From IMG/VR virus record IMGVR_UViG_3300028782_000005, positions 1 through 25,992 of that record: a DNA stretch of 25,992 nt. The stretch is one strand, 5' to 3'. Within the stretch, counting starts at the first letter, position 1, and every line of letters starts with the position of its first letter. The translations under genes and the position numbers were made by a program. Shown one piece after another: positions 4,089 to 25,992 of this stretch. Origin of the DNA: a virus. The notes below the pieces were generated by a model. It was not told where the DNA came from, made no database searches, and saw only the letters and a list, made by a program, of their open reading frames with translations.

Positions 4089-4396
4089 AGGTCAATGCCA
4101 TGATGATGGCCATGCTCGTCAAGGCCATGATCGACGGCACGATGACGTGCCGCGAGCTGGCCGCGGAGACCGGCCTGCACTACCTCACGGTGCTGCAGTA
4201 CGGCAAGGCCATGCACAAGGCCGGCGCGGCCCACATCTCGGGTTGGGAGTTGGACTCCCTCGGCCGGTGCAGCATTCGCATCTACCGGCTCGGGCCCGGC
4301 AAGGATGCAAAGAAGCCGACGAGGACCCGGGCGCAGGTGTGCGCAGATCGACGGGCCAGGAAACGCGACGCAGAACTTCTAGGATTGAAGACATGA
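4085..4396 (+). CDS. Helix-turn-helix protein
   Basis: This 103-aa protein has a clear HTH at about residues 17-47 (TCRELAAETGLHYLTVLQYG and following helix) and a basic C-terminal tail (70-97, many Lys and Arg). It looks like a small DNA-binding regulator. It overlaps VRR-NUC and the next gene by ATGA at each end, so the gene order is tight even across the lower-GC insert that follows. Confidence 0.82.
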   Translation: MKVNAMMMAMLVKAMIDGTMTCRELAAETGLHYLTVLQYGKAMHKAGAAHISGWELDSLGRCSIRIYRLGPGKDAKKPTRTRAQVCADRRARKRDAELLGLKT

Positions 4397-5004
4397 GCAG
4401 ACTGGTCGATCTCTCCGGTAGGCGTTTCGGCATGTTGGAGGTTCTGGAGCGGGGCCCGGACATGCCTCGTGCCGACCACGGCGGTCGCACTCAGTGGTAT
4501 TGCGTGTGCGACTGTGGTGCCCTGTGCTTGGTGGAGGGTTGCAACCTGAAATCCGGGAACAGTGAGTCGTGCGGTTGCACCCACGGTGAAAAACACGGAA
4601 TGGGGCACCTACCAGAGTACAGAGTTTGGTGTGGCATGTGGAAACGCTGCAGCAACTTGAAGAGCAAGTCCTACCGTAACTACGGCGGGAGAGGGTTGGA
4701 GGTCTCCGAGAAGTGGTCAACATTCAGCCGGTTTTACCAGGACATGGGGCCACGACCGACGCCTTGGCACACCTTGGAGCGGGAGAGGAACTCTGAAGGC
4801 TACGGGCCTGGCAATTGCGTGTGGGCCACGAGAAAAACCCAAGGTAACAACCGGAGAGGTAACTTGCGGATTACTGCATTCGGGGTCACAAAAACATTGG
4901 CTCAGTGGGCAGAGAGCACCAAGCTGAAAAGTAGCACCATTCGGTACAGAATCGTGGTATCTGGGTGGACCCCAGAAGAAGCACTAAGCAGACCGGTGCA
5001 ATGA
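4393..5004 (+). CDS. Putative homing-endonuclease-type protein (HNH-like core with zinc and HTH domains)
   Basis: This 203-aa protein has three recognisable parts. Residues 6-62 are a zinc-binding domain (DLSGRRFGMLEVLE, then CVCDCG and SCGC; C39, C41, C60, C62). Residues 77-152 carry the phage endonuclease-like core with YRNYGGRGLEVSEKW, FYQDMGPRP and NCVWATRKTQGNNRR. Residues 160-200 resemble a NUMOD-like HTH (FGVTKTLAQWA, GWTPEEAL). The usual LDR-D-N-D-G run is LERERNSEG here, so activity may be altered. Base composition is visibly less G+C-rich than the flanking genes (two 60-base lines counted by hand are near half G+C), suggesting recent arrival. ATG at 4393 overlaps the previous stop; much longer upstream in-frame starts are rejected. 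Confidence 0.8.
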   Translation: MSRLVDLSGRRFGMLEVLERGPDMPRADHGGRTQWYCVCDCGALCLVEGCNLKSGNSESCGCTHGEKHGMGHLPEYRVWCGMWKRCSNLKSKSYRNYGGRGLEVSEKWSTFSRFYQDMGPRPTPWHTLERERNSEGYGPGNCVWATRKTQGNNRRGNLRITAFGVTKTLAQWAESTKLKSSTIRYRIVVSGWTPEEALSRPVQ

Positions 5005-6413: not shown

Positions 6414-6970
6414 AGTTGATCTACAGCCCGGTGACCGGTGTCCGGCACGTTGACGTTTCACTGACGGCGGAGGAGTACCGGGAGCTGTGCCCGACCGAGT
6501 CGTGGGCCTTCAACCCTTTGACGGGGAAGCGTCGTGCCACGTACGACGTGGTGCACGACCCCCAAGGGCTGATGATCGTGGCTGGTGAGGAGTTGAAGGC
6601 AGCCGCGGGGGTGCTGGACAAGCAGCCGGTACCGACCGAAGGTCGGATGCTCTACGACCCGGAGACCAACACCGTCATCGGGGTGCCCACCGACACCCTC
6701 ACCGACACCCTCACCGACACCCTCACCGAACGCGGCAAGCGCTACGGCAAGTTCACCGACCACGCTCAGATATCTCAGGACCTGGAAGACGTGATGCGGG
6801 CCTGCCCGAAGTGGTCGGCGCTGGCAGCCGACCAGAAGGAGGCGTTGAAGATGGTCGTCCACAAGATCGCCAGGATCCTGAATGGCGACCCGAACTACGA
6901 CGACTCGTGGGTGGACATCTCGGGCTATACCAAGCTGGTGGCCGACAGGCTGCAAGGAGTGTCACGGTGA
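6410..6970 (+). CDS. Two-part protein with DUF6378-like C-terminal domain
   Basis: This 186-aa protein has an N-terminal region (1-90) of unknown type, a linker made of three TDTL repeats (94-105), and a C-terminal helical domain (106-186) matching the phage DUF6378 pattern: ERGKRYGKFTDHAQ, PKWSALAADQKEALKMV, HKIARILNGDP and DSWVDISGY. The biochemical role of DUF6378 is not known to me. ATGA overlap with the helicase gene and GTGA overlap with the next gene place it in the same transcript. Confidence 0.85.
   Translation: MKLIYSPVTGVRHVDVSLTAEEYRELCPTESWAFNPLTGKRRATYDVVHDPQGLMIVAGEELKAAAGVLDKQPVPTEGRMLYDPETNTVIGVPTDTLTDTLTDTLTERGKRYGKFTDHAQISQDLEDVMRACPKWSALAADQKEALKMVVHKIARILNGDPNYDDSWVDISGYTKLVADRLQGVSR
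6689..6724 (+). repeat. Three perfect 12-bp tandem repeats in coding sequence
   Basis: ACCGACACCCTC occurs three times head to tail, encoding TDTL x3 (with a partial fourth copy) in the linker of the DUF6378-like protein. The unit is a multiple of three, so copy-number change alters linker length without a frameshift. Confidence 0.95.
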
Positions 6971-7521
6971 GAGAACTTGCGCAACACATCCTCACCAACG
7001 CCAATGCGTTCGAGTGGTCCCTGCAAGGCATGGGCTTGCTCCGACTTCACCTGCCAAACCACTGCCGGCTGCATGTCTGGGACTCGCGGTTCCGCAAGCC
7101 GGGCGTCAGCATGATCCACGACCACCTGCAGTGGGGCCTGCACTCGACCATCCTTGCCGGGGTGATGACGAACCGCCGCTACGTCGAAGACGCGAACGGC
7201 ACGGAGGTCATGCACATGACTATCAAGCCGGGGTACGGGTACTTCAAGAAGTCGGAACCCGCGGGTATTCGGCTGCGAGCCCTCCCTGCTGAGTTCTACC
7301 GCCCTGGAGAGACCTACTCGCAAGAGCCGAACGAGATCCACGAGACCGACGCCGACGACGGCACCGTCACGTTCATGCGCAAGTCGCCCACCACCGACGA
7401 GTCGGCCCGGGTGTTCTGGCCCCTTGGCCAGGAGTGGGGCAGCGCCGAACCGCGGATCGCGACCGCGGGTGAGGTGACCGCGATCACCGAGCACGCGCTG
7501 AAGCGGTGGTTCGGGGTATGA
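6967..7521 (+). CDS. Cupin-like protein, possible metal-dependent oxygenase or isomerase
   Basis: This 184-aa protein looks like a cupin. Motif 1 is MIHDHLQWGLHS (H51, H53, H59) and motif 2 is YSQEPNEIHET (E120, H126), separated by about 60 residues as in cupins. Cupins bind a metal and include dioxygenases, isomerases and sugar epimerases; the substrate cannot be told. The GTG start overlaps the previous stop (GTGA). It opens the accessory block of glycan-type enzymes. Medium confidence in fold, low in reaction. Confidence 0.75.
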   Translation: MRELAQHILTNANAFEWSLQGMGLLRLHLPNHCRLHVWDSRFRKPGVSMIHDHLQWGLHSTILAGVMTNRRYVEDANGTEVMHMTIKPGYGYFKKSEPAGIRLRALPAEFYRPGETYSQEPNEIHETDADDGTVTFMRKSPTTDESARVFWPLGQEWGSAEPRIATAGEVTAITEHALKRWFGV

Positions 7522-8120
7522 GCAAGCTGCTCGACTGGTCCGGCAAGACCTGCGTCATCCTGGCCAGTGGCCCAGGTCTCACCGAGGAGCAGGTCGAGCA
7601 CGTCGGCGGCAGTACCGGCCCTTTGAGGTCGATTGCCGTCAACTCCACCTTCAAGCCCGCGCCCTGGGCCGACGTAGCGTACGCAGGCGACATGCAGTGG
7701 TGGAAGAAGTACCACAAGGAGGTCCCCGCGCCGATGCAGCGCTGGACCTGCGACCACCAGGCTGAGCACCACTACAAGATCAACCGCGTGAAGGGTGTCA
7801 ACCGGCCCGGCCTGGGCCTGAACGTGCTGCACACGGGCGGGAACAGCGGGTACCAGGCGATCAATCTCGCGTTCCTGTTCGGCTGCCGGCGGATCCTGCT
7901 TCTGGGCTTCACCATGCGGGTGATCGACGGCCGCAAGCACTGGCATCCAGACCACCCGGCACCCCTCACTCAGGTGGTGCTTCCAGATGAGTGGCGCCAC
8001 AAGTTCACGAAGATGGCGGATGATCTCAAGGCTCACGGCTGCACGGTTGTGAACTGCGATCCCTTGAGCGCGCTGACCTGTTTCCCGATGAGCACAATCG
8101 AAGAGGAGTTGAGGACATGA
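7518..8120 (+). CDS. MptE/DUF115-like phage protein
   Basis: This 200-aa protein begins with a Rossmann-like segment, VILASGPGLTEEQ (13-25), followed by IAVNSTFKPAPWADVAYAGD (39-58), LHTGGNSGYQAI (104-115) and HWHPDHP (141-147). This order resembles phage and bacterial proteins of the 6-hydroxymethylpterin pyrophosphokinase MptE-like/DUF115 group, some members of which work in glycan transfer or flagellin glycosylation. ATG at 7518 overlaps the previous stop. The reaction is unknown; a nucleotide-sugar or pterin-type substrate is inference. Confidence 0.75.
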   Translation: MSKLLDWSGKTCVILASGPGLTEEQVEHVGGSTGPLRSIAVNSTFKPAPWADVAYAGDMQWWKKYHKEVPAPMQRWTCDHQAEHHYKINRVKGVNRPGLGLNVLHTGGNSGYQAINLAFLFGCRRILLLGFTMRVIDGRKHWHPDHPAPLTQVVLPDEWRHKFTKMADDLKAHGCTVVNCDPLSALTCFPMSTIEEELRT

Positions 8121-8518
8121 ACAGTATCCCGATACCTGAAGGCATGCCGGGTTTGATCTCGGCAACGTTGGTCGGCAGCCGCGTGACGTGCAGTCCGCCA
8201 CCCGCCGACACCGACCTGGACGTGCTGGTACTGGTAGGCGAGGACCAGTGGGACGAAGCTCAAGCGTTCCTGGTGGCGAACGGCTACGGACACGACGGTT
8301 CGGACATCAGCGACAAACTCGGCTTCGTGTCCGACTCGTGCTTCAAGTCCTACTCGCTCGGCGAGGTGAACATCATCGTCACACACGACGGGGATTTCCA
8401 CGATCGGTTCTTGGCTGCGTCGTCGGTCGCCAAACGGTTGAACCTGCTGCAGAAAGCTGACCGTGTAGCGCTGTTCCAGGCTGTGCTCTACGGCAACTCT
8501 TGCGTGGACTTCTCGTGA
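8117..8518 (+). CDS. Small nucleotidyltransferase-like protein
   Basis: This 133-aa protein shows the minimal nucleotidyltransferase signature: GSR (20-22) followed by DTDLDVLVLV (31-40), with D33 and D35 as likely metal ligands. The rest is a compact alpha/beta domain, shorter than most sugar or tRNA nucleotidyltransferases, like the phage and MNT-type single-domain forms. It could transfer a nucleotide to a small molecule or a protein. No HEPN partner gene is next to it, so a toxin-antitoxin pair is not supported. Confidence 0.72.
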   Translation: MNSIPIPEGMPGLISATLVGSRVTCSPPPADTDLDVLVLVGEDQWDEAQAFLVANGYGHDGSDISDKLGFVSDSCFKSYSLGEVNIIVTHDGDFHDRFLAASSVAKRLNLLQKADRVALFQAVLYGNSCVDFS

Positions 8519-8835
8519 GCAGCACTGAAGCCTATGTCGTGGACGGCGGTGAAGAACGCCGTCTGCGCAACCCCAACGAAGGTCCGGACGGCGAGATGGT
8601 ACCGACAGGCGTGCAGCGGCGGGCTGGGCTCACCGGCGTGCTCCACCTGCTGGACCAGATCGCCCGGCGCGACGAGAGCCGTGACTTCCGAGTCGCGGCA
8701 CGCGCTCAGGCGAACGTCGTCCGCGGGCTCCTGGGCCTGGAGACCAAGGACTACGGTGGTGAGGTCCAGGCCTCGCCTTCGCAACTGAAGATCGGCAACG
8801 TCACCGACGTGCTGGTGATCGAGAACAAGCCATGA
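8515..8835 (+). CDS. Hypothetical protein (106 aa)
   Basis: The frame starts at GTG 8515, overlapping the previous stop, and overlaps the next ATG at 8832. The protein is soluble with a helical centre (LTGVLHLLDQIARRDESRDF, residues 39-58, then VRGLLGLETKDYG). No family recognised. A link to a terminase small subunit was considered from size alone and is not supported. Confidence 0.72.
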   Translation: MSSTEAYVVDGGEERRLRNPNEGPDGEMVPTGVQRRAGLTGVLHLLDQIARRDESRDFRVAARAQANVVRGLLGLETKDYGGEVQASPSQLKIGNVTDVLVIENKP

Positions 8836-9626
8836 GCCGTATTGCCGTCGTCAAGGTTCGCAAAGAGCCGCACTACCGCCGCCAGGCCATCGAGTCGGGC
8901 CTCCTGCGCTGCGGGTTCGCGCTCGCGGCCAGCATCAAGGCCCCGCAACTCCACAAGGACGACTGGCTGGTGCTCTGGAACCGCAAAGCTGGCGTCGAGG
9001 AGGCGGAGGCCGAGGACTGGGAGCGCCGGGGCGGCAGCGTCATCGTCATGGAGAATGGCTACTTAGCTAAGGTAGACAAGACCATGTACGCGATCAGCGT
9101 GGGCCAGCACAACGGCGCGGGCTGGTTCCCGGTGGGCGACGAGGACCGATTCACGAAGCTCGGGTTCGAGATCAAGCCGTGGCGCGAGGGTGGTGAGTAC
9201 GTGCTGGTGTGCGCACAGCGCGGCATCGGCTCGAAGCTCATGGCCAGCCCGCCAGGGTGGGATCGCAAGATGGCCGAAAGCCTCAAGAAGATCATTCTGC
9301 TTCCGGTCAAGGTGAGGTCTCACCCTGGCAATTTCGTCGCCAAGGTGCCGCTGGTGACCGACTTGGCGAAGGCTGAATCGTGCGTCATCTGGTCCAGCGG
9401 CTCAGGGGTCAGGGCTCTGGTGGAGGGCGTGCCGGTGAACTACAGCGCGCCTCACTGGGTCTGCGAGCAGGCAGCAATCTCGTGGAGAGCGCGTCACGGT
9501 GGTGGGGTTCCGGTTTGCGACCTGTACCGTAAAGAGGCCCTCCACCGCATGAGCCACGGGCAGTGGCACGTAGACGAAATCACAACCGGCGAACCCTTCG
9601 CCAGAATCTTGGAAGGACTGAAATGA
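8832..9626 (+). CDS. Glycosyltransferase-like protein, copy A of a related pair
   Basis: This 264-aa protein looks like a short GT-B-type or capsule-synthesis-type protein. Recognisable parts are WLVLWNRKAG (45-54), VIVMENGYL (70-78), LGFEIKPWREGGEYVLVCAQ (110-129), PVKVRSHPGN (158-167, an RPHP-like motif), VIWSSGSGVRALVEGVPVNY (185-204) and QWHVDEITTGEPF (244-256). The same series is found in the 244-aa protein at 9781, so the two are paralogues. A sugar or sugar-phosphate donor binding site is inferred from the SSGSG-EGVPV segment. ATGA overlaps at both ends. Confidence 0.75.
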   Translation: MSRIAVVKVRKEPHYRRQAIESGLLRCGFALAASIKAPQLHKDDWLVLWNRKAGVEEAEAEDWERRGGSVIVMENGYLAKVDKTMYAISVGQHNGAGWFPVGDEDRFTKLGFEIKPWREGGEYVLVCAQRGIGSKLMASPPGWDRKMAESLKKIILLPVKVRSHPGNFVAKVPLVTDLAKAESCVIWSSGSGVRALVEGVPVNYSAPHWVCEQAAISWRARHGGGVPVCDLYRKEALHRMSHGQWHVDEITTGEPFARILEGLK

Positions 9627-9784
9627 GCGACGAGGAAATGAAGCGTGACGCGGCCCGCTGGCGCTGGCTGCGCGAGCAGTCGAAGCAGGTGGCGCCTGTG
9701 GCGGCCGTGGTGTGGCAGACGCCACCCTTCGACGCCACCGACCTGGACACCGCGGCGGATCGCTACGTGGAGCATGACGAATGA
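9623..9784 (+). CDS. Small phage protein (53 aa)
   Basis: The 53-aa protein begins MSDEEMKRDAARWRWLREQ, a sequence type seen in many short phage proteins of unknown function. ATG at 9623 overlaps the previous stop and its own stop overlaps the ATG at 9781. An in-frame upstream start at 9563 is rejected because it runs through the end of the glycosyltransferase-like gene. Confidence 0.75.
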   Translation: MSDEEMKRDAARWRWLREQSKQVAPVAAVVWQTPPFDATDLDTAADRYVEHDE

Positions 9785-10515
9785 CCCCCTACCCCACCCT
9801 TGGCAAGCCGAAAGCCAAAGTCCTCCTCGACGCCTTCATGGAGGGCTGCGGCGATCTGAAGGAGAACGCCGCGGTCTTCTACGGCGTCAACGAGACCAAC
9901 ATCGAGCACTGGCGCGAGGTGCGCCGGTTCCGGCGGCCGTACTACTCGATCGACAACTCGTACTTCGACCAGACCCGCGGCTTCAAGGAGCCGCACGCGC
10001 AGTTCCGGATCACGAGGAACAGGTTCCAAGTGCCCGCGGTGGACCTCAAGTCTGACGGCTTTCGGTTCGCGGCGTTGGGCATCAAGCTGCAGCCGTGGCG
10101 GCACCCGACCGCCACCAGCCACACGCTGGTGTGTCCGCAGTCGGACGCGTTCATGCGTGACATCGCCCAGTACCCGGGCGACTGGGCGAAGGACACGATG
10201 CAGAGCCTGGCCCACGCCTCGCCGGTGGTGTTCCGCGCGTGGGGCCGCGACAAGCTGAAAGCTGCAAGCACCCTGCCGCACGACCTGGAGAACGCGCACC
10301 TGCTCGTGACCCACAGCTCCGCCGCCGCGGTTACGGCGCTCATCCACGGGGTGCCGGTTCAGGTGTCGAGCATGTCGGCGCTGTGGGGTTGCAATTTTGA
10401 CGTTGGCAACGACAATTGCCCGGTCCGGCTCAACGTCATGGGTGTGCTGGCGGACAACCAATTTTCACTTTTGGAAATCAAACAGGGGGTGGCGTGGAAA
10501 TGGCTAAGCAAGTGA
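9781..10515 (+). CDS. Glycosyltransferase-like protein, copy B of a related pair
   Basis: This 244-aa protein follows copy A segment by segment: AVFYGVNE (31-38), YYSIDNSYF (54-62), LGIKLQPWRHPTATSHTLVC (99-118), VVFRAWGRDK (149-158), LLVTHSSAAAVTALIHGVPV (174-193) and NQFSLLEIKQGVAW (226-239). The positively charged loop FRAWGRDK replaces VRSHPGN, so the presumed active site differs and the two may act on different acceptors. It overlaps the 53-aa gene by ATGA and the next methyltransferase by 16 bases. Confidence 0.73.
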   Translation: MTPYPTLGKPKAKVLLDAFMEGCGDLKENAAVFYGVNETNIEHWREVRRFRRPYYSIDNSYFDQTRGFKEPHAQFRITRNRFQVPAVDLKSDGFRFAALGIKLQPWRHPTATSHTLVCPQSDAFMRDIAQYPGDWAKDTMQSLAHASPVVFRAWGRDKLKAASTLPHDLENAHLLVTHSSAAAVTALIHGVPVQVSSMSALWGCNFDVGNDNCPVRLNVMGVLADNQFSLLEIKQGVAWKWLSK

Positions 10516-11057
10516 AAAGCGGATGGTTCACAACTCCCGGTCGCCCCGGCGACCGCACGCTCCAGGACCAGATGAAGGGCTTGGACCACGTGTTCGAGTT
10601 CGTCCACGGCAAGACCGTGCTCGACATCGGTTGTGCTGAGGGCATGCTCACGGCCGAGATGGCTCACCGCGGCGCGGTGGCGGTGCACGGCGTCGAGGTG
10701 GTCAAGGCCCACGTCGAGACCGGCCGCAGGGTGCACGCAGACCTGGCGGCCTGCTTCGAGGTCGGCGACGCCAACGTGTGGGTTCCGAAGCGCAAGTACC
10801 ACGTCGTGCTGCTGCTGGCGGTGCTCCACAAGCTGAAGAACCCCACCGAGGCGTGCGCCCGGTTCGCGGACGCAGCCATCGACATGGTGGTCATTCGCCT
10901 GCCGCCCGAGCACGCACCCACGATCATCGACTCGCGCAGCGGTAACAACCCCCACCACATCGACCGAGTGATGGAGGTTCGGGGCTGGCGGTTGGAGCGG
11001 GTGACGCGTGGGCACTTCATCGAGTGGTGCGGGACGTACGTGAGGAGTGGCGCGTGA
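10500..11057 (+). CDS. Class I SAM-dependent methyltransferase 1
   Basis: This 185-aa protein has the Rossmann motif I VLDIGCAEGMLTAEM (40-54), an acidic residue after strand 2 (GVEVVK, E66), and a strand-4 segment VVLLLAVLHKLKNP (102-115). It resembles small-molecule or glycan methyltransferases of the type 11/25 class. The acceptor is unknown. ATG at 10500 has a GGGGG ribosome binding site ten bases upstream; a GTG at 10494 is possible but too close to it. It shares 16 bases with the previous gene. Confidence 0.85.
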   Translation: MAKQVKSGWFTTPGRPGDRTLQDQMKGLDHVFEFVHGKTVLDIGCAEGMLTAEMAHRGAVAVHGVEVVKAHVETGRRVHADLAACFEVGDANVWVPKRKYHVVLLLAVLHKLKNPTEACARFADAAIDMVVIRLPPEHAPTIIDSRSGNNPHHIDRVMEVRGWRLERVTRGHFIEWCGTYVRSGA

Positions 11058-11275
11058 AGATGGAAGTCAAGCACTACGATGCTGAGGCCCGGAAGTTCCT
11101 CGCGAATCTGAAGACCCACAAGGAGGACCCCGATCGGCGGGAGGTGGTCGGTCAGATCACGGTGGAGTCCCGCGGACGGCAGTTCGTCAGGAACATCCGG
11201 GACGGGGATGTCCTGGACATCGAAGCTGTACAACGAGAGGTTCAGACCCTCCACACCAAGAGGCGCAAGCTGTGA
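11054..11275 (+). CDS. Hypothetical protein (73 aa)
   Basis: This is a 73-aa basic, mixed alpha/beta protein. GTG at 11054 overlaps the previous stop and lies about seven bases after GAGGAG; an ATG at 11060 in the same frame is an alternative. No family recognised. It sits between two methyltransferase genes and is translationally coupled to both. Confidence 0.72.
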   Translation: MKMEVKHYDAEARKFLANLKTHKEDPDRREVVGQITVESRGRQFVRNIRDGDVLDIEAVQREVQTLHTKRRKL

Positions 11276-11796
11276 CCGACCTGACCCCGCTGTACCGTGA
11301 CATGGCCGCAGGCGGCCAGTCGTTCTTCGGCCTCTCGATTCTTCAGCACGAGAAGACGATCCGCAAGCTGGTCCGCAAAACCGGCGCCAAGACGATCCTC
11401 GACTACGGCTGCGGTCGCGGGGACGCCTGGGGCGCTGGTGGTAACCTGCACCGCGACATCGGCGTCAAGCGCAAGGACGTGACGCTGTACGACCCGGCGT
11501 TCAAGGGCAACGCCCGGGTGCTGCCCGAGGGCCGCAAGTTCGACGGCGTGCTCTGTAGTGACGTGCTGGAGCACGTGCCTCGCGAGGACGTGGACGCGCT
11601 GATCGACAGGCTGTTCGGGCACGCCAAGCTGTTCGTCTGGGCCAGCGTCTGCTGCCGGCCGGCCAAGAAGTGCTTTCCGGACGGCACCAACCTGCACGTC
11701 ACCATCGAGCCGTACGAGTGGTGGCTCAAGAAGTTCCACGGCATGAACGCAACGCGGGTTGCGCCTCTCGACTTCTGCTTGACGGAGACACCATGA
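11272..11796 (+). CDS. Class I SAM-dependent methyltransferase 2
   Basis: This 174-aa protein shows motif I ILDYGCGRGDAWG (42-54), a post-II acidic segment YDPAF (73-77) and motif IV-like DGVLCSDVLEHVP (91-103), typical of class I methyltransferases acting on small molecules or glycans. The N-terminal MTDLTPLYRDMAAGGQSFFG is common in phage members. It is not closely similar to methyltransferase 1, so it probably modifies a different position. GTG start, GTGA overlap upstream, ATGA overlap downstream. Confidence 0.86.
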   Translation: MTDLTPLYRDMAAGGQSFFGLSILQHEKTIRKLVRKTGAKTILDYGCGRGDAWGAGGNLHRDIGVKRKDVTLYDPAFKGNARVLPEGRKFDGVLCSDVLEHVPREDVDALIDRLFGHAKLFVWASVCCRPAKKCFPDGTNLHVTIEPYEWWLKKFHGMNATRVAPLDFCLTETP

Positions 11797-12023
11797 CCGA
11801 TGCTGACATTCACCGGCTTACCCAGATGCCGGACAAGGAACTCATCCAGTACCTGAAGACCCTCCCGGGAGCCTTGACCGTAGAAGTGGCAAGGAGCCTT
11901 CTCGTGCGCCTGGACCGCCTGCACGCGGCGGTTGATGACGTGGCGGATGACGTGGGGCGGTACACACGAGGTGATCCGCAACACCCGCTCCGAGCCGCGA
12001 TGGTGTTCCATGGGTCTCGGTGA
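11793..12023 (+). CDS. Hypothetical small helical protein (76 aa)
   Basis: The 76-aa protein (starts MTDADIHRLTQMPDKEL) looks helical, with Leu and Val spacing suggesting a coiled coil at about 30-55. ATG at 11793 overlaps the previous stop. Its 3' end lies inside the next glycosyltransferase gene in another frame, by some 50 bases if that gene starts at 11971. The C-terminal part may therefore be shaped by the overlap. Function unknown. Confidence 0.65.
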   Translation: MTDADIHRLTQMPDKELIQYLKTLPGALTVEVARSLLVRLDRLHAAVDDVADDVGRYTRGDPQHPLRAAMVFHGSR

Positions 12024-12759
12024 TTTTTTGATGGCATCCGGCCGAGCCCGGAAGCTGTACCAGGAGAACAAGCTCCCGGTGCTCATCCTTGGCCGGAACG
12101 GGACTCGCGCCTGGTCCGACCTCTGGGATGGTTTGCCATACATCGCCCGCCGGCCTGCGGGCCGCCGGTACCAGACCATCGTGGACGGCTCGGGCGTGCG
12201 CCCCTACATCGCGGCCAAGACCGCGGAGCGGTGGACGTGGAAGCCGTACGGCCCCACGCCGGCCCAGATCGTGTTCACGCCTGCCGAGCTGGCGTTCGCG
12301 GAGCTGTACCGCGGGATGGTGATGGTCGAACCGAACGTGAAGGCCATCGGGCACACGAACAAGGCCTGGAGTTGGGGTCGGTGGCAGGAGGTGGTGCGCG
12401 CGATGCCGGAAACGCGGTTCGTGCAGTGCATCTCGAACGGTCTCCAGCCGACCTTGCACGGCGTGTCGTGGGTGGTGTCGCCGTCCTTCCGCCACGCCTG
12501 CGCCGTGCTCTCGGTCTGCAAGGCGTTCGTCGGTACTGAGGGCGGCCTCATGCACGCGGCTGCGGCCGTGGGCACACCGGCCGTGGTATTGTTCAGCGAG
12601 TTCATCAGCCCGGACATCACCGGCTACACCGCGCACCGCAACATCCGGCATGCCGGGCCAGCGTGCGGCATGCGCACCGACTGCCCCGGCTGCCGGACGT
12701 CCATGGAAGCCATCTCGGTTGACGAGGTGGTTCGCAACTTGAAGGAGATCCTGGAATGA
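11971..12759 (+). CDS. Glycosyltransferase, GT9/heptosyltransferase-like
   Basis: This protein of about 262 aa has an ADP-heptose:LPS-heptosyltransferase-like layout. SMGLGDFLMASGRARKLY (13-30) is the N-terminal GD loop and helix, VLILGRNG (37-44) follows, and CKAFVGTEGGLMHAAAAVG (183-201) with GTPAVVLF (201-208) is the nucleotide-sugar binding part. CGMRTDCPGCRTSM (232-245) is a Cys-rich tail also seen in relatives. It probably transfers a sugar from an NDP-sugar. The start is uncertain: GTG 11971 keeps the first beta strand; TTG 11932, ATG 11935, ATG 11947 or ATG 12010 are alternatives. Confidence 0.82.
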   Translation: MIRNTRSEPRWCSMGLGDFLMASGRARKLYQENKLPVLILGRNGTRAWSDLWDGLPYIARRPAGRRYQTIVDGSGVRPYIAAKTAERWTWKPYGPTPAQIVFTPAELAFAELYRGMVMVEPNVKAIGHTNKAWSWGRWQEVVRAMPETRFVQCISNGLQPTLHGVSWVVSPSFRHACAVLSVCKAFVGTEGGLMHAAAAVGTPAVVLFSEFISPDITGYTAHRNIRHAGPACGMRTDCPGCRTSMEAISVDEVVRNLKEILE

Positions 12760-13406
12760 AACTTCACAAAGGCTGGTGGTTCCCGGACCATGAGCAGCAC
12801 CTCACGGCCTGGATGGACAGCAAGAAGAACAAGGTCGAGATGAACGGTCGGTCGGCCTACCAAGGATCGAAACAGATCGCGGCGCTCAAGCGCTGCACTT
12901 CGTTCCGGCTGGCCGTGGATGTCGGAGCGCACGTCGGGCTCTGGAGCCGCAACCTGGCGTTCGCGTTCGACACCGTGTTCGCCTTCGAGCCGGTAGCCGA
13001 ACACCGCGAGTGCTTCCAGAAGAACGTCACTGGAGTTGGCCAAGTCACTCTGTTGCCGTACGCGCTCGGGGCCAAGCCCAGCATGGTCTCCATTGACACC
13101 GAAGTCGGAAGCAGCGGTAACAGCGCGGTGGGCGGGCCTGGTGAGATCGAGATGCGCACCCTCGACAGCTTCGGGCTCAACGACCTGGACTTCCTGAAGA
13201 TCGACACCGAAGGCTTTGAAGAGAACGTCCTGCGCGGCGGTGAGCAGACGATCAAGGCTTGCAAGCCAGTGATCGTCGTGGAGCAGAAGCGGGAGATGGC
13301 CTCGCGGTTCGGGCTACCCACGCTGGGCGCCGTGCACCTCCTGGAGTCGTGGGGCTACAAGGTGGTCGAGGAGATAAGCGGTGACTACATCTTGGTGCCG
13401 ACATGA
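12756..13406 (+). CDS. FkbM family methyltransferase
   Basis: This 216-aa protein is an FkbM-type SAM-dependent O-methyltransferase. It shows AVDVGAHVGLWSR (53-65, SAM-binding motif I), VFAFEPVAEH (74-83) and the diagnostic LDFLKIDTEGFEENVLRGG (144-162). FkbM enzymes methylate hydroxyls of sugars or polyketides, which fits the neighbouring glycosyltransferases. Length is normal for the family. ATGA overlaps at both ends. Confidence 0.93.
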   Translation: MKLHKGWWFPDHEQHLTAWMDSKKNKVEMNGRSAYQGSKQIAALKRCTSFRLAVDVGAHVGLWSRNLAFAFDTVFAFEPVAEHRECFQKNVTGVGQVTLLPYALGAKPSMVSIDTEVGSSGNSAVGGPGEIEMRTLDSFGLNDLDFLKIDTEGFEENVLRGGEQTIKACKPVIVVEQKREMASRFGLPTLGAVHLLESWGYKVVEEISGDYILVPT

Positions 13407-13603
13407 AACTCAAGAAGTACATCGTGGACGGGAAACCGGTAGAGGCCGGAACGCACAGGTCGGCGCTACGGAAAGCACGGGGCTACAAGTCCTTCCCTGG
13501 GCACCACGTGGAGGAGTGCGCTGAAGGAACTGAAGGCTGTGCTCGTGTCGAGGACGGCGACGGGAATCTGATCTGTTGGGTAGTCGAAGTGGAGCACGGT
13601 TGA
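13403..13603 (+). CDS. Hypothetical protein (66 aa)
   Basis: This is a 66-aa basic protein with two Cys (ECAEGTEGCARV, residues 38-49) and a beta-rich C-terminus. It overlaps the FkbM gene by ATGA and ends two bases before the next ATG. No family recognised. Confidence 0.75.
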   Translation: MKLKKYIVDGKPVEAGTHRSALRKARGYKSFPGHHVEECAEGTEGCARVEDGDGNLICWVVEVEHG

Positions 13604-13605
13604 AC

Positions 13606-14301
13606 ATGAGAATCCTGATCGGCTACGACGAACGCGAAGCGGAAGCCGCGCGTGTCGCGCTCAAGTCGCTGCGCAGCGTGTCCAACGTGCCGGCTGAACT
13701 GCTGGACGCGGAGAAGCTGGCGGCCCACGGCCTGCTCAACAGGCTCGGCGACCACCGGGGCGGCCAGGACTATGACCTGGTGTCCAACGCGAAGAAGAGC
13801 ACCCGCTTCGCGGTCTCGCGCTTCCTCACTCCGATCCTGTGCCAGGAGGGTTTCGCACTCTTCACCGACTGCGACGTGGTGTTCCTGCGCAACCCGGAAG
13901 AGATGTTGAACGAGATCGAACCGGGCAAGGCCGTCTACGTCGTGAAGCACGACTACACGCCATCCACCCGGTTCAAGATGGTGAATCAGGAGCAGAGCAA
14001 CTACGTCAGGAAAAACCAATCTTCGGTGATGTTGTTCGACTGCTCCCACCCCGCCAACCGCCGGCTCACGCTCTGGGACGTGAACAACCGGCCTGGCCGC
14101 GACCTGCACAGGTTTTACTGGCTGCACGACGACGAGATCGGTGACCTGAGCCCGGCCTGGAACTGGCTCTGCGACGAAGTAGAGAGGCCCGACAACCTGG
14201 GCATAGCCCATATGACTCTAGGAGGGCCTTGGATACCAGGCTGGGTCACCGGTAAGGGGTGTTTCGACAACGAGTGGTGGGAGGCGGCGCGCAATGAGTG
14301 A
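13606..14301 (+). CDS. GT-A type glycosyltransferase with DxD motif
   Basis: This 231-aa protein shows the GT-A signature FALFTDCDVVFLRNP (83-97, with D88 and D90 as the metal- and nucleotide-binding DxD). A C-terminal AHMTLGGPWIPG (201-212) resembles the His-Gly-Pro-Trp segment of GT8-like enzymes. It begins MRILIGYDEREAEA, the usual first strand of phage members. It probably uses a UDP- or similar sugar donor. ATG 13606 is two bases after the previous stop. It is the last gene of the plus-strand run and faces the spanin genes. Confidence 0.88.
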   Translation: MRILIGYDEREAEAARVALKSLRSVSNVPAELLDAEKLAAHGLLNRLGDHRGGQDYDLVSNAKKSTRFAVSRFLTPILCQEGFALFTDCDVVFLRNPEEMLNEIEPGKAVYVVKHDYTPSTRFKMVNQEQSNYVRKNQSSVMLFDCSHPANRRLTLWDVNNRPGRDLHRFYWLHDDEIGDLSPAWNWLCDEVERPDNLGIAHMTLGGPWIPGWVTGKGCFDNEWWEAARNE

Positions 14302-23443: not shown

Positions 23444-23809
23444 TCACACCTCTCGGACGAACTCGCGGGTTCCGCGGGGGCGCCACTCAGGACCCAGCCG
23501 CCTCGCCCAACCCCGCCTCCGAGACTCGAAGGCGACCGTTGTTGCTCCGAGATCGCGGGCGACTGCGCACACCGCGGCGGCTTGACGCTCGAAGGCGCCG
23601 TGCTTCAGGGCCACGGCCAGCCAGACGAACATCTCCAGGGCTCCATCCCGCGCTCGGAGGTCGAAGACGATCACTACGTCCTCGCACACCAGGCAGGTGG
23701 CCCTGTCAGCTTCGCATTCTGCCTGAACTTCCGCCAGCCCGGCGGTGAGGTTCGGGCGCACGCGCAGCGCTGGCAGGGGTTGGATCGTGAACTGGGTGCC
23801 GGCGATCAC
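23444..23809 (-). CDS. Small protein of GNAT-like appearance, next to tail fibre
   Basis: The GTG at 23809 overlaps the tail-fibre stop (GTGA), giving 121 aa. Two Cys lie close together (CLVC, 39-42), followed by LEMFVWLAVALKHGAFERQA (59-78), CAVARDLGATTVAFESRRRG (81-100) and WARRLG. This strand-helix-strand order ending in R-GW-R-L resembles GNAT-like proteins of podoviruses, such as the acetyltransferase-like T7 gp13, but the acetyl-CoA loop is not clear. Upstream in-frame starts lie inside the fibre gene. Fold call tentative. Confidence 0.75.
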   Translation of the reverse strand: MIAGTQFTIQPLPALRVRPNLTAGLAEVQAECEADRATCLVCEDVVIVFDLRARDGALEMFVWLAVALKHGAFERQAAAVCAVARDLGATTVAFESRRRGWARRLGPEWRPRGTREFVREV

Positions 23810-25992
23810 GATTTCTGCTTGGCTGCCAGTTCCTGCACCGCCCGCCACAGGATAGGGATGAACTGCTCGTACCGCAATGCCTGCTCAGACTTCGGGTCGT
23901 CAGGGTCAGCCAGGTTCCAGCCAGCGAAACTGGCCCCGTCCAACCCTTGCTCGGCCAATGCGGCTTGAACCTCCTGGGCAATGAACCCGTAGTGTCGGCG
24001 GCGGCCGGGGATCGGCGTGACGACGTGCGTTCTTGCGTCGTCGTCAAGCACTGTGACGATATTACTGCCCACCTTCTGCAAGTATGACACCGGCCTCAAC
24101 GACTCCACGAAATCCAACCCGAGAGCCACAGGTTGGACTTCAATCTTGTTGCGCTTGTCGGACGCCACTGTGACCGCGTTCTGCGAGTAAATGTTGCGCC
24201 AATTGCCGGTGCTGGTCTCTCCCAAGTCCCGGGTGTTGTTGTTCTGGGCCAGGAATGCGTTGGAGCCGTACTTGTAAGCAGCCGTCGAGTTGGCGGACAA
24301 CCCAACCACGCCCGCGGCTTGGAGATACATACCGTTGGCTGGCGCCGTCGATCCGGTGACCAGCAGCGACGCGCTTTCCAGCGTGGACGAGAACACGCCG
24401 GATGTGCCAGCAAGCGACGACTGAAACGTGGCCGCGCCCGTGTTCGAGATGGTCAACCGCGTGGTGCCGTTGACCACCACGGTGAAATTGCCGGCTGTAC
24501 CGCTTGAACTTGTTCCGGCCGTGATTGACACGGATCCACCAGCACCTGAACTTGGGTTGTTGCCGGCCGTTATGGCGATGCTGCCGGCAGCGGACGTGCC
24601 GGCGCCAGCACCGCCTTGGATGGTCAGCAGGCCAGCGCCGACAACGCTGGGCGCAGCATCGCCGGTTTGGATGGTCAAGGAGGCGGCATTTGCGCCACTG
24701 GAAGCGTTGGCCGTGCGAAGTGTAGACGGGCCCGTGCCGGCGCCCATCTGCATCGTGAGCGTCGAGTTCGCCCAGGTGAAGGTGGACGTGCCGGTAAGCA
24801 CGTTCGACCCATTGCCGTAGCCGATGTTGGTGGACGTCAGGGCACTGCTCGGTGCGTTTGACCAAGCGGGAAAACCGCCGACGCGCACGATAACCTGGCC
24901 ATCAACGCCGGCCGCTATCGGGGTTAGGCTGTTCGATATGGATGTCAGGACCACTCCGTCAGCGTAGGACGACAACCCGGTGCCTCCGTTCCCGGTGGCC
25001 AATGTGCCACTGACGTGCGTGGTGAGTCCGATCTTGCCCCAGGCCGGCGCCGCGCCGACCCCACCAGAGATGAGTGCGTTTCCCGTCGCCACATCTGCCA
25101 GCTTCGACAGCACGCTGGCGGTGCTGGCATAGAGGATGTCACCCACCGCGTAGGTGGAGAAGCCCGTGCCTCCGAAGTTGGCTGCCGGCGGTGTGCCTTG
25201 CCACACCCCAGTGTTGATCGTACCGACGCTCGTCAGCGAGCTGGTGACCACGTTGGCGGCCAGAGTGGTACCTGTCAGCGTGCCGGCCGGTGCCACGACC
25301 GCGTTGGTGCTGGCCGCTGTGACCAGACCCTTAGGGTTGACCGTGAACGACGGGATGGCGGTGCTGGAGCCGAATGACCCGACGTCGCTGTTCACCGTTG
25401 CCAGGGTGGTGGCAAACGACCCGGTCCCGGAACCTGCCACATCACCAGTCAGGGTGATGGTCTGGTCGCCGGTGTTGGTGCCGCTGAGGTTGGAGCCTGC
25501 CACCGTGCCGCTGGCGGCCACTGACGTAGGCGTGATGTTGCCGAGCCCGATGGTGATGGATCCGGATGAAGTGATCGGCCCTCCAACGGACGTGACCCCG
25601 TCCGCTGGCGTGATACCCACCGAGGTCACGGATCCTGAGCCGGAACCTGCGAGGTCTGCGATGTCCTGCACGCTCACCTGGTACGAGGTGCCATCCCCGT
25701 CGTCAACGGCCACGGCTTCGTGACCGTTCAACCCTCCGCTGCGGATCGGGAGGTTGGAGATCGGCGTGTCGTAGATGAACGGGTTGTCGCCCACTCCGTT
25801 GCCATCTTCGACCACCAGGTTCCCGCCCACTTCGATCGTGCGCGTCGTCACGTCGTCCGGTCCAATCTTCACCACCAGGCCATTGCCGGCCGAGTTGAAG
25901 TCCTGAGCCAGAGTCACCGCGTCGCGCACCAGGCCCCAAGTCGCGGGCAGGAAGGTCTCGTACTCCGAGTAGACGCCCGGGTGCTGCAGCGC
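23806..25992 (-). CDS. Tail fibre with C-terminal S74 chaperone domain, 5' end outside window
   Basis: The frame is open to the window edge (first residues read ALQHPGVYSEYETFLPATWG), so the gene starts outside; an internal GTG at 25929 is not needed as a start. At least 728 residues are present. The shaft is Gly/Ser/Thr-rich with GGTG-type repeats (FGGTGFSTYAVGDILYAS, NGGTGLSSYADG), typical of fibres. The C-terminus (bases 23806 to about 24165) is an intramolecular chaperone/peptidase S74 domain: VASDKRNKIEV with the cleavage Ser, then YGFIAQEVQAAL. The domain trimerises the fibre and then cuts itself off. It determines host binding. Confidence 0.92.
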   Translation of the reverse strand, partial: ALQHPGVYSEYETFLPATWGLVRDAVTLAQDFNSAGNGLVVKIGPDDVTTRTIEVGGNLVVEDGNGVGDNPFIYDTPISNLPIRSGGLNGHEAVAVDDGDGTSYQVSVQDIADLAGSGSGSVTSVGITPADGVTSVGGPITSSGSITIGLGNITPTSVAASGTVAGSNLSGTNTGDQTITLTGDVAGSGTGSFATTLATVNSDVGSFGSSTAIPSFTVNPKGLVTAASTNAVVAPAGTLTGTTLAANVVTSSLTSVGTINTGVWQGTPPAANFGGTGFSTYAVGDILYASTASVLSKLADVATGNALISGGVGAAPAWGKIGLTTHVSGTLATGNGGTGLSSYADGVVLTSISNSLTPIAAGVDGQVIVRVGGFPAWSNAPSSALTSTNIGYGNGSNVLTGTSTFTWANSTLTMQMGAGTGPSTLRTANASSGANAASLTIQTGDAAPSVVGAGLLTIQGGAGAGTSAAGSIAITAGNNPSSGAGGSVSITAGTSSSGTAGNFTVVVNGTTRLTISNTGAATFQSSLAGTSGVFSSTLESASLLVTGSTAPANGMYLQAAGVVGLSANSTAAYKYGSNAFLAQNNNTRDLGETSTGNWRNIYSQNAVTVASDKRNKIEVQPVALGLDFVESLRPVSYLQKVGSNIVTVLDDDARTHVVTPIPGRRRHYGFIAQEVQAALAEQGLDGASFAGWNLADPDDPKSEQALRYEQFIPILWRAVQELAAKQKS

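Follow-up and report, generated by a model that had tools for sequence, protein, structure and literature searches.

An eight-gene cassette of environmental and Caulobacter phages and its possible role in O-glycosylation of virion proteins

The window analysed in this work, a stretch of 25,992 bases from a bacterial virus of soil, is an entire IMG/VR record (IMGVR_UViG_3300028782_000005). Positions 6967-14301 of the window are occupied by a block of 15 tightly coupled plus-strand genes. This coupled run had been described in an initial annotation of the window and was confirmed, the fifteenth gene being an open reading frame (ORF) of 76 amino acids (aa) at 11793-12023. With the starts chosen, 14 genes overlap the preceding gene by 4 nucleotides (nt), and the GT9 gene, which probably starts at the ATG at 12010, does so by 14 nt. 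The complete block is also present at 100% identity in the 60,583-base record 3300028872_000001, and pieces of it are found at 99-100% identity in five further contigs. Portal, capsid, tail and primase/helicase genes, read by eye in the 60.6-kb record, suggest that the phage is a podovirus. A search for near-identical DNA among phage records returned no match to the window. Eight of the genes, listed below, form a conserved core. We propose, with a probability of about 0.56, that this cassette O-glycosylates the virion proteins of the phage in the cytoplasm, a Maf-like enzyme initiating the glycan.

7518..8120, plus strand: core 1, MptE/DUF115-like protein, proposed initiating glycosyltransferase (GT); phrog_4603, 2e-44; predicted Maf/GT42 sialyltransferase fold
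8832..9626, plus strand: core 2, GTB1; predicted fold of the beta-Kdo transferases (Kdo, 3-deoxy-D-manno-oct-2-ulosonic acid); R162-S-H-P; Gln129 kept; Gly133 at the place of the nucleophile Asp
9781..10515, plus strand: core 3, GTB2; relative of GTB1 by profile cross-match; conserved place; mostly without the HP motif
10512..11057, plus strand: core 4, MT1, class I methyltransferase; PF13489, 37.6 bits, over cut-off; conserved place
11272..11796, plus strand: core 5, MT2, class I methyltransferase; PF13489, 33 bits, over cut-off; phrog_24759, 7e-23
12010..12759, plus strand: core 6, GT9 heptosyltransferase-like protein; PF01075, 30 bits, over cut-off
12756..13406, plus strand: core 7, FkbM methyltransferase; PF05050, 72.8 bits, and TIGR01444, 77 bits, both over cut-off; FkbM in the PDB (2py6), E 0.003
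13600..14301, plus strand: core 8, GT-A protein (GTA) with a DxD motif (DCDVVF); phrog_28018, 5e-38; PF03407 below cut-off

Conservation of the core genes and their order

Viral sequences were scanned beginning from MptE, GT-A and a GTB1 profile, and the relatives used were the best 80 of 303 and 80 of 168. MptE relatives are common, 303 being found in one scan. A genome scan with the GTB1 profile gave 5 loci. Profile hidden Markov models were built for the eight genes from the better-conserved loci. A GTB1 score above 150 bits was obtained at 114 loci, which collapsed into 75 clusters at 90% identity, the window's phage included. These loci were picked by single genes and not by gene order.

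The conserved order is MptE/Maf-like GT, GTB1, GTB2, MT1, MT2, GT9, FkbM, GT-A. All eight genes are present in the order of the window at 23 of the 75 distinct GTB1 loci. MptE occurs together with GTB1 in 67/75 clusters, and an inversion is seen in 6/75. When only clusters with at least 1.5 kb of upstream and 7 kb of downstream sequence were considered (n=48), 19 had eight genes, 27 at least seven and 35 at least six; 31 of these 35 showed no inversion. The pairwise distances of the eight genes are correlated (rho 0.28-0.75 in 39 clusters with at least seven genes, shared ancestry being uncorrected). Neighbourhood comparison, set beforehand as a test of the initial annotation, thus revealed co-conservation. 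The sugar-product pathway proposed there is supported for a unit kept in one order, both modelled proteins having predicted glycosyltransferase folds; membership of all fifteen genes is not supported. In a simple hydropathy test, none of the eight core proteins of the window had a 19-residue Kyte-Doolittle mean above 1.51, and hence no long hydrophobic segment.

Sequence identities to members of the window's clade were determined for L238, a contig that lacks markers of this clade and has a collagen-like gene upstream. MT1 and GT-A reach 72% identity and FkbM 67%, above the medians of 56-60% within the clade, which suggests that at least part of the cassette has been exchanged between phages. 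For MptE and GTB1 the best identities across contexts (49% and 56%) do not exceed the medians (51% and 57%).

Several loci depart from the common arrangement. A single 450-aa open frame at L065 (9989-11338) fuses MptE-like and GTB-like domains. Endonuclease-like ORFs (HNH/GIY-YIG by eye) lie between the cassette genes of L211 (4931-5413, 6207-6743 and 8025-8519), as if homing elements had settled there. Radical SAM and zinc-binding sugar C-methyltransferase-type proteins (PF08421, PF08484) are encoded within the cassettes of L233 (10714-11754) and L228 (9514-10803). GTB1, GTB2-like genes, MT2 and GTA are found in L272, a metagenome-assembled genome (MAG) labelled Candidatus Methanoperedens, which points either to a virus of archaea or to a contig placed in the wrong bin. 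Partial cassettes occur in bacterial genomes as well, with five core genes in a Mesorhizobium chromosome (L273) and four in a Variovorax contig (L274). Both are probably prophages, and could be inducible, since the L274 cassette adjoins a connector-like gene.

Predicted folds, motifs and donor sugars

The FkbM, GT9 and two class I methyltransferase assignments of the initial annotation were borne out by Pfam families over cut-off. The MptE-like and GT-A names were supported by PHROG matches, with Pfam scores below cut-off; for MptE the score against PF01973 was 22.4 bits (cut-off 34.6). An AF2 model of MptE, made from 17 sequences, had a predicted local distance difference test score (pLDDT) of 92. 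Its best VIA match was Maf (5mu5, Z 15.5, 179 residues aligned, root mean square deviation 3.2), followed by CstI (2p2v, Z 12.9), CstII (12.3) and an archaeal MptE-type enzyme (8sd5, 11.9). Plain Foldseek on the same model ranked dehydrogenases first, with a TM score near 0.3. The aligned MptE proteins have about 200 aa and lack the long flanks of Maf, a chain of 632 residues.

No family over cut-off was found for GTB1 or GTB2, and Pfam matches were weak in 21 GTB1 members. Profiles of GTA, GTB1, MptE and GTB2 gave no credible match among PDB sequences. GTB1 is known as a GT-B protein from its predicted structure only, and GTB2 from its profile similarity to GTB1. The AF2 model of GTB1 (21 sequences, pLDDT 92) resembles KpsC (GT107; Foldseek E 1e-6, VIA Z 12.7), WbbB (GT99; Z 12.5) and KrkA (GT140; Z 10.2) over nearly its whole length. 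Beta-Kdo transferases fill the first 15 VIA rows (Z 10.0-12.7, the next row being at 7.8) and Foldseek ranks 1-18. Glycosyltransferase folds, and not unrelated ones, are thus predicted for both proteins modelled. Named proteins among the best-matching viral models for GTB1 include one from CcrColossus and, from the algal Tetraselmis virus 1, proteins labelled 'capsule polysaccharide biosynthesis'.

In beta-Kdo transferases, according to PMC12887879 and PMC10148158, the nucleophile belongs to an absolutely conserved QXXXD motif, and cytidine monophosphate (CMP) is bound at a (K/R)XHP motif. The (K/R)XHP motif is present in the GTB1 of the window and in 63 of 78 distinct GTB1 proteins, and in 2/40 GTB2 proteins. 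At the QXXXD motif, the Gln is kept in 76/78 GTB1 proteins and Gly stands at the place of the Asp in 76/78; position 74 is acidic in all 78. Among GTB2 proteins, QXXXD occurs in 2/40. The correspondence of residues Q129 and H164 to KpsC was derived from the motifs and the order of the strands and not from a structure alignment. KpsC, WbbB and KrkA are retaining enzymes; GTB1 differs from them in that the catalytic Asp is found in 0/78 proteins. The predicted GTB1 structure is therefore described as resembling beta-Kdo transferases, and the protein is not classed as one; the double-displacement mechanism cannot apply in its known form.

PF01075 was matched at E 0.01 in 19 of 20 aligned relatives of GT9, and GT9 itself matches WaaF (1psw, E 6e-6). 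Residues D90 and D92 of the GT-A protein are invariant in 17 sequences.

Synthesis genes for the sugar donors were sought in 22 records that carry the cassette and that may be fragments. NeuB was found in 0/22 and the CMP-sugar synthetase family CTP_transf_3 (PF02348) in 1/22. The donor in most of these phages is therefore probably a CMP-sugar of the host, unless absent pieces of the records carry synthesis genes. Kdo is found in almost all Gram-negative hosts. The single PF02348 gene (L249, record G019, 12188-12907) lies between MT2 and FkbM. Its best NCBIfam match is PseF, pseudaminic acid cytidylyltransferase (64 bits, cut-off 205.7), and Kdo cytidylyltransferase models score lower. PMC7591256 reports pseudaminic acid production by C. 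crescentus, and cites work in which Maf enzymes place Neu5Ac or Kdo on Thr/Ser of flagellin in E. coli.

Genes beside the cassette and its proposed function

The neighbourhood of the cassette was compared across the 75 GTB1 clusters. Head genes accompany the cassette in 32, 23 belong to the clade of the window, 3 have a collagen-like gene only, and the 17 remaining include the Caulobacter phages CcrSC and CcrColossus. Of the 52 distinct loci without window-clade markers, some of which are short and possibly still in the clade, 30 have a gene for a capsid, connector or neck protein no more than 500 nt away from the edge of the cassette. By a rough estimate, a head gene would fall within this distance by chance in a few per cent of cases in a 50-kb genome. 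Scans of nine of the 12 connector, closure and neck seeds gave matches to connector families of PHROGs in every case, and major head proteins were matched by three of the four capsid seeds.

The genes directly upstream were examined in two batches. In the first, drawn mostly but not only from loci with MptE alone, 29/41 neighbours match major head protein families. Among the 40 of the second batch, phrog_1289 was found in 14, the tail-fibre family phrog_5073 in 12 and the major head protein phrog_10 in 6. Of the 81 upstream neighbours listed, L212 was left out, and L046 was present in both batches; the batch alignments consist of unrelated proteins pooled for scanning. The choice of neighbour ORF was mechanical and error-prone at high G+C, and interspersed genes were read with the help of codon-position G+C. 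The label 'portal protein' of phrog_1289 was not accepted, as the family falls on collagen-like repeat proteins and the label seems wrong. Collagen-like repeat proteins with a common C-terminal part are encoded directly upstream of the cassettes at L046 (7848-9959), L099 (3637-5310) and L251 (5694-7370).

Among 50,697 phage records, GTB1 matches (E 0.01) were confined to 14 Caulobacter-phage records. In CcrSC and CcrColossus, homologues of MptE, GTB1, GTB2, GTA, MT2 and GT9 form one run between tail genes and the endolysin; these cassettes differ from that of the window in that GTA is moved forward, MT1 has no match and the FkbM homologue is elsewhere in the genome. A smaller set of three genes, MptE with a methyltransferase and one further protein, is known from phages D3, PAJU2, Psp6 and Eowyn. 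In the first three it lies among head genes, and the two partners are weakly GT9-like (E 0.0095-0.2) and weakly MT2-like (E 8e-5 to 0.002). The hdmB and hdmC genes of P7, annotated as head morphogenesis genes, match the MptE profile. An MT2-like and a GTA-like gene lie between the capsid and stabilisation protein genes of MW202512.

The proposal of virion O-glycosylation is thus built on computed observations, namely the gene content, the conserved order, the predicted folds and motifs, the lack of a long hydrophobic segment and the head and tail neighbours in relatives. From these we infer the donors, the order of steps, the acceptor and any benefit, which may lie in adsorption, stability or shielding. 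The Maf/GT42-like MptE protein would attach the first sugar to a Ser/Thr residue in a protein of the capsid or fibre, taking it from a host CMP-activated eight- or nine-carbon acid sugar (Kdo or a nonulosonate). GTB1, GTB2, GT9 and GT-A would lengthen the chain; for GTB1 the donor is probably a CMP-sugar as well, and for GT9 it may be ADP-heptose. MT1, MT2 and FkbM would methylate hydroxyls and thereby cap the chain. The outcome would be a decorated phage particle made during infection.

A more detailed version is put forward only tentatively. According to it, the cassette is a horizontally exchanged protein O-glycosylation system of phages, with a Maf-type initiator, four extending glycosyltransferases and three capping methyltransferases, which places a methylated glycan containing Kdo or nonulosonate and heptose on capsids or fibres. 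The nucleophile-less, KpsC-like GTB1 would depend on a different mechanism, perhaps an inverting one, in its use of CMP-sugars.

Among the nearest known counterparts are the Maf/FlmG systems of cytoplasmic flagellin O-glycosylation. A soluble GT of Maf/GT42 fold is common to both, and the cassette likewise has no lipid carrier or membrane protein among its genes. Flagellin glycosylation islands typically hold extra glycosyltransferases and methyltransferases of the FkbM type as well. The cassette differs in being phage-borne, in its short MptE domain and in adjoining capsid, connector or tail genes instead of flagellin in many relatives. Virion glycosylation is known from mycobacteriophages, where phage-coded glycosyltransferases, apparently fewer and of other families, act on particle proteins. 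In the literature searched (titles and abstract openings listed, with few subscription journals or preprints), no account of this cassette or of such virion glycosylation was found.

A number of observations weigh against the proposal. No such particle has been seen to carry a glycan. In the window's own clade (23/75 loci), no detected head or connector gene adjoins the cassette, and the cassette of the window sits between SNF2/replication genes and lysis genes. A further 20/75 loci have neither a detected head gene nor a clade marker. The head-gene seeds were drawn from MptE and cassette loci, favouring detection there, and many of the 29 head-protein neighbours are closely related to each other. 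SNF2 had been dropped as a clade marker, as it matched many records outside the clade, and its loci were reused as a control. Same-strand head genes were found within 4 kb of SNF2 in 0/76 other loci, a weak control because there were none anywhere in the flanks and the seeds may miss the head types concerned. The triad of Eowyn is surrounded by hypothetical genes, and neither of the two partners of its MptE gives a credible match to a cassette profile. In Stenotrophomonas phage DLP_6, a tRNA cluster precedes the GTA and methyltransferase homologues, and the endolysin comes soon after them. The catalytic Asp of the beta-Kdo transferases is missing from GTB1, in spite of the similar predicted fold. 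L272 carries cassette genes under an archaeal label, and Kdo is not expected in archaea.

The main rival is modification of the host surface. Soluble glycosyltransferases and methyltransferases would rebuild lipopolysaccharide (LPS) core or capsule precursors at the cytoplasmic face, alter the receptor and exclude other phages. The GT9 and beta-Kdo-transferase folds are typical of LPS and capsule enzymes, Gram-negative hosts draw on Kdo and ADP-heptose as donors for LPS, and a cassette placed after replication genes, as in the window, is expected of an early host-takeover function. We consider this rather unlikely, given that capsid, connector or tail genes adjoin the cassette in other phages and that the best fold match of MptE is a protein glycosyltransferase, Maf. 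In addition, the GtrA flippase and the acyltransferase family were each found in 0 of the 22 records, which as noted may be fragments (in the control, the GtrA search rings in 7/14 genomes). Seroconversion of the O-antigen by a gtr-type system was rejected on these counts. Of the targets named in the initial annotation, virion proteins thus fit best, and host LPS is retained, though with neither GtrA nor an acyltransferase family detected in the 22 records.

The third target named there, DNA, is a poor candidate. Hypermodification of phage DNA with a sugar chain would suit a cassette that follows DNA polymerase and helicase genes, as in the window, and phage DNA glucosyltransferases exist. The cassette neighbours elsewhere are structural genes, however, and the thymidylate-synthase/dNMP-hydroxymethylase family PF00303 was detected in only 1 of the 22 possibly fragmentary records and not in the 60.6-kb record, other routes not being searched; such a role is very unlikely. 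Somewhat less remote, and still improbable, is the making of a free glycan or a small inhibitor, or the glycosylation of a host protein, for instance flagellin. Maf, which MptE resembles in predicted fold, is a flagellin glycosyltransferase according to PMC7591256. A cupin-like gene in the window, and the radical SAM and sugar C-methyltransferase-type genes of other cassettes, would also be in keeping with such a product, whereas the linkage to structural genes and the short MptE domain speak against it. Least probable of all is that independent cargo genes were assembled by chance and form no single pathway. One to six of the eight genes are held by 36/75 loci, partly owing to contig ends, and endonuclease-like and other genes are interspersed, but the order is kept at roughly 40-67% identity between different phages, the distances of the eight genes correlate and MptE and GTB are fused in one frame in L065.

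If the cassette does glycosylate virion proteins, many environmental and some culturable Caulobacter phages would build an elaborate particle glycan with soluble enzymes. A function would be provided for genes that lie close to the head genes of phages such as D3 and P7 and are now named 'alpha-2,3-sialyltransferase' or 'hypothetical'. Additional cytoplasmic O-glycosylation enzymes would become available for engineering, and a GT-B group like the beta-Kdo transferases but without their nucleophile would be defined.

Accessory genes and flanks of the block

The remaining seven genes of the block are accessory.

6967..7521, plus strand: cupin-like protein, as named in the initial annotation; phrog_4784, 4e-8; no Pfam match
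8117..8518, plus strand: nucleotidyltransferase-like small protein; phrog_15166, 3e-27 (no function annotated); no Pfam match; accessory insertion
8515..8835, plus strand: 106-aa protein; no strong family
9623..9784, plus strand: 53-aa ORF; no strong family
11054..11275, plus strand: 73-aa ORF; no strong family
11793..12023, plus strand: 76-aa ORF overlapping the GT9 start; translation only
13403..13603, plus strand: 66-aa ORF; no family

The accessory genes, except the 11793 ORF, were used as tblastn queries (E 1e-4) against 100 loci. The cupin, the nucleotidyltransferase and the 13403 ORF were matched only in records of the window's phage. Neither of the first two has a match in L004, though the MptE protein of L004 is 88% identical. 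Outside the window's phage, the 8515 ORF matches only L100 and L087 (34-40% identity), and the 9623 and 11054 ORFs match only L004, the latter at 59%. In L004 the end of MptE is the beginning of GTB1; the nucleotidyltransferase and 106-aa genes therefore look like insertions. The cupin and nucleotidyltransferase genes, found only in the window's own phage, are not core, and their membership of the pathway, as read in the initial annotation, is not supported. The nucleotidyltransferase motif is presumably pol-beta-like and unlike that of a sugar nucleotidyltransferase.

Upstream of the block lie DNA polymerase, VRR-NUC and HNH-like genes, all read by eye, and genes for an SNF2 helicase and a DUF6378 protein. 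Downstream, the minus strand encodes a GH19 lysin, a protein whose weak match to holins stays below cut-off, and structural proteins, with a spike named by PHROGs. The placing of the block inside a replication operon is thus correct as to the polymerase and SNF2 genes upstream and has to be amended to the end of the operon, minus-strand lysis and structural genes coming after it.

4393-5004: HNH-like protein (by eye); no Pfam match; 4-nt overlaps with both flanking genes
23806..25992, minus strand: tail spike/fibre; phrog_4636, 5e-21; 23% Ser+Thr; extends past the record end

Judged from its composition, the Ser/Thr-rich spike is a candidate acceptor in the window's phage. Other contigs of the same phage encode a long Ala-rich repeat protein (L102, 1361-2218) and, near tail genes read by eye, a 212-aa protein on the minus strand with a GT-A-like DWDD stretch and no Pfam match (L101, 358-996).

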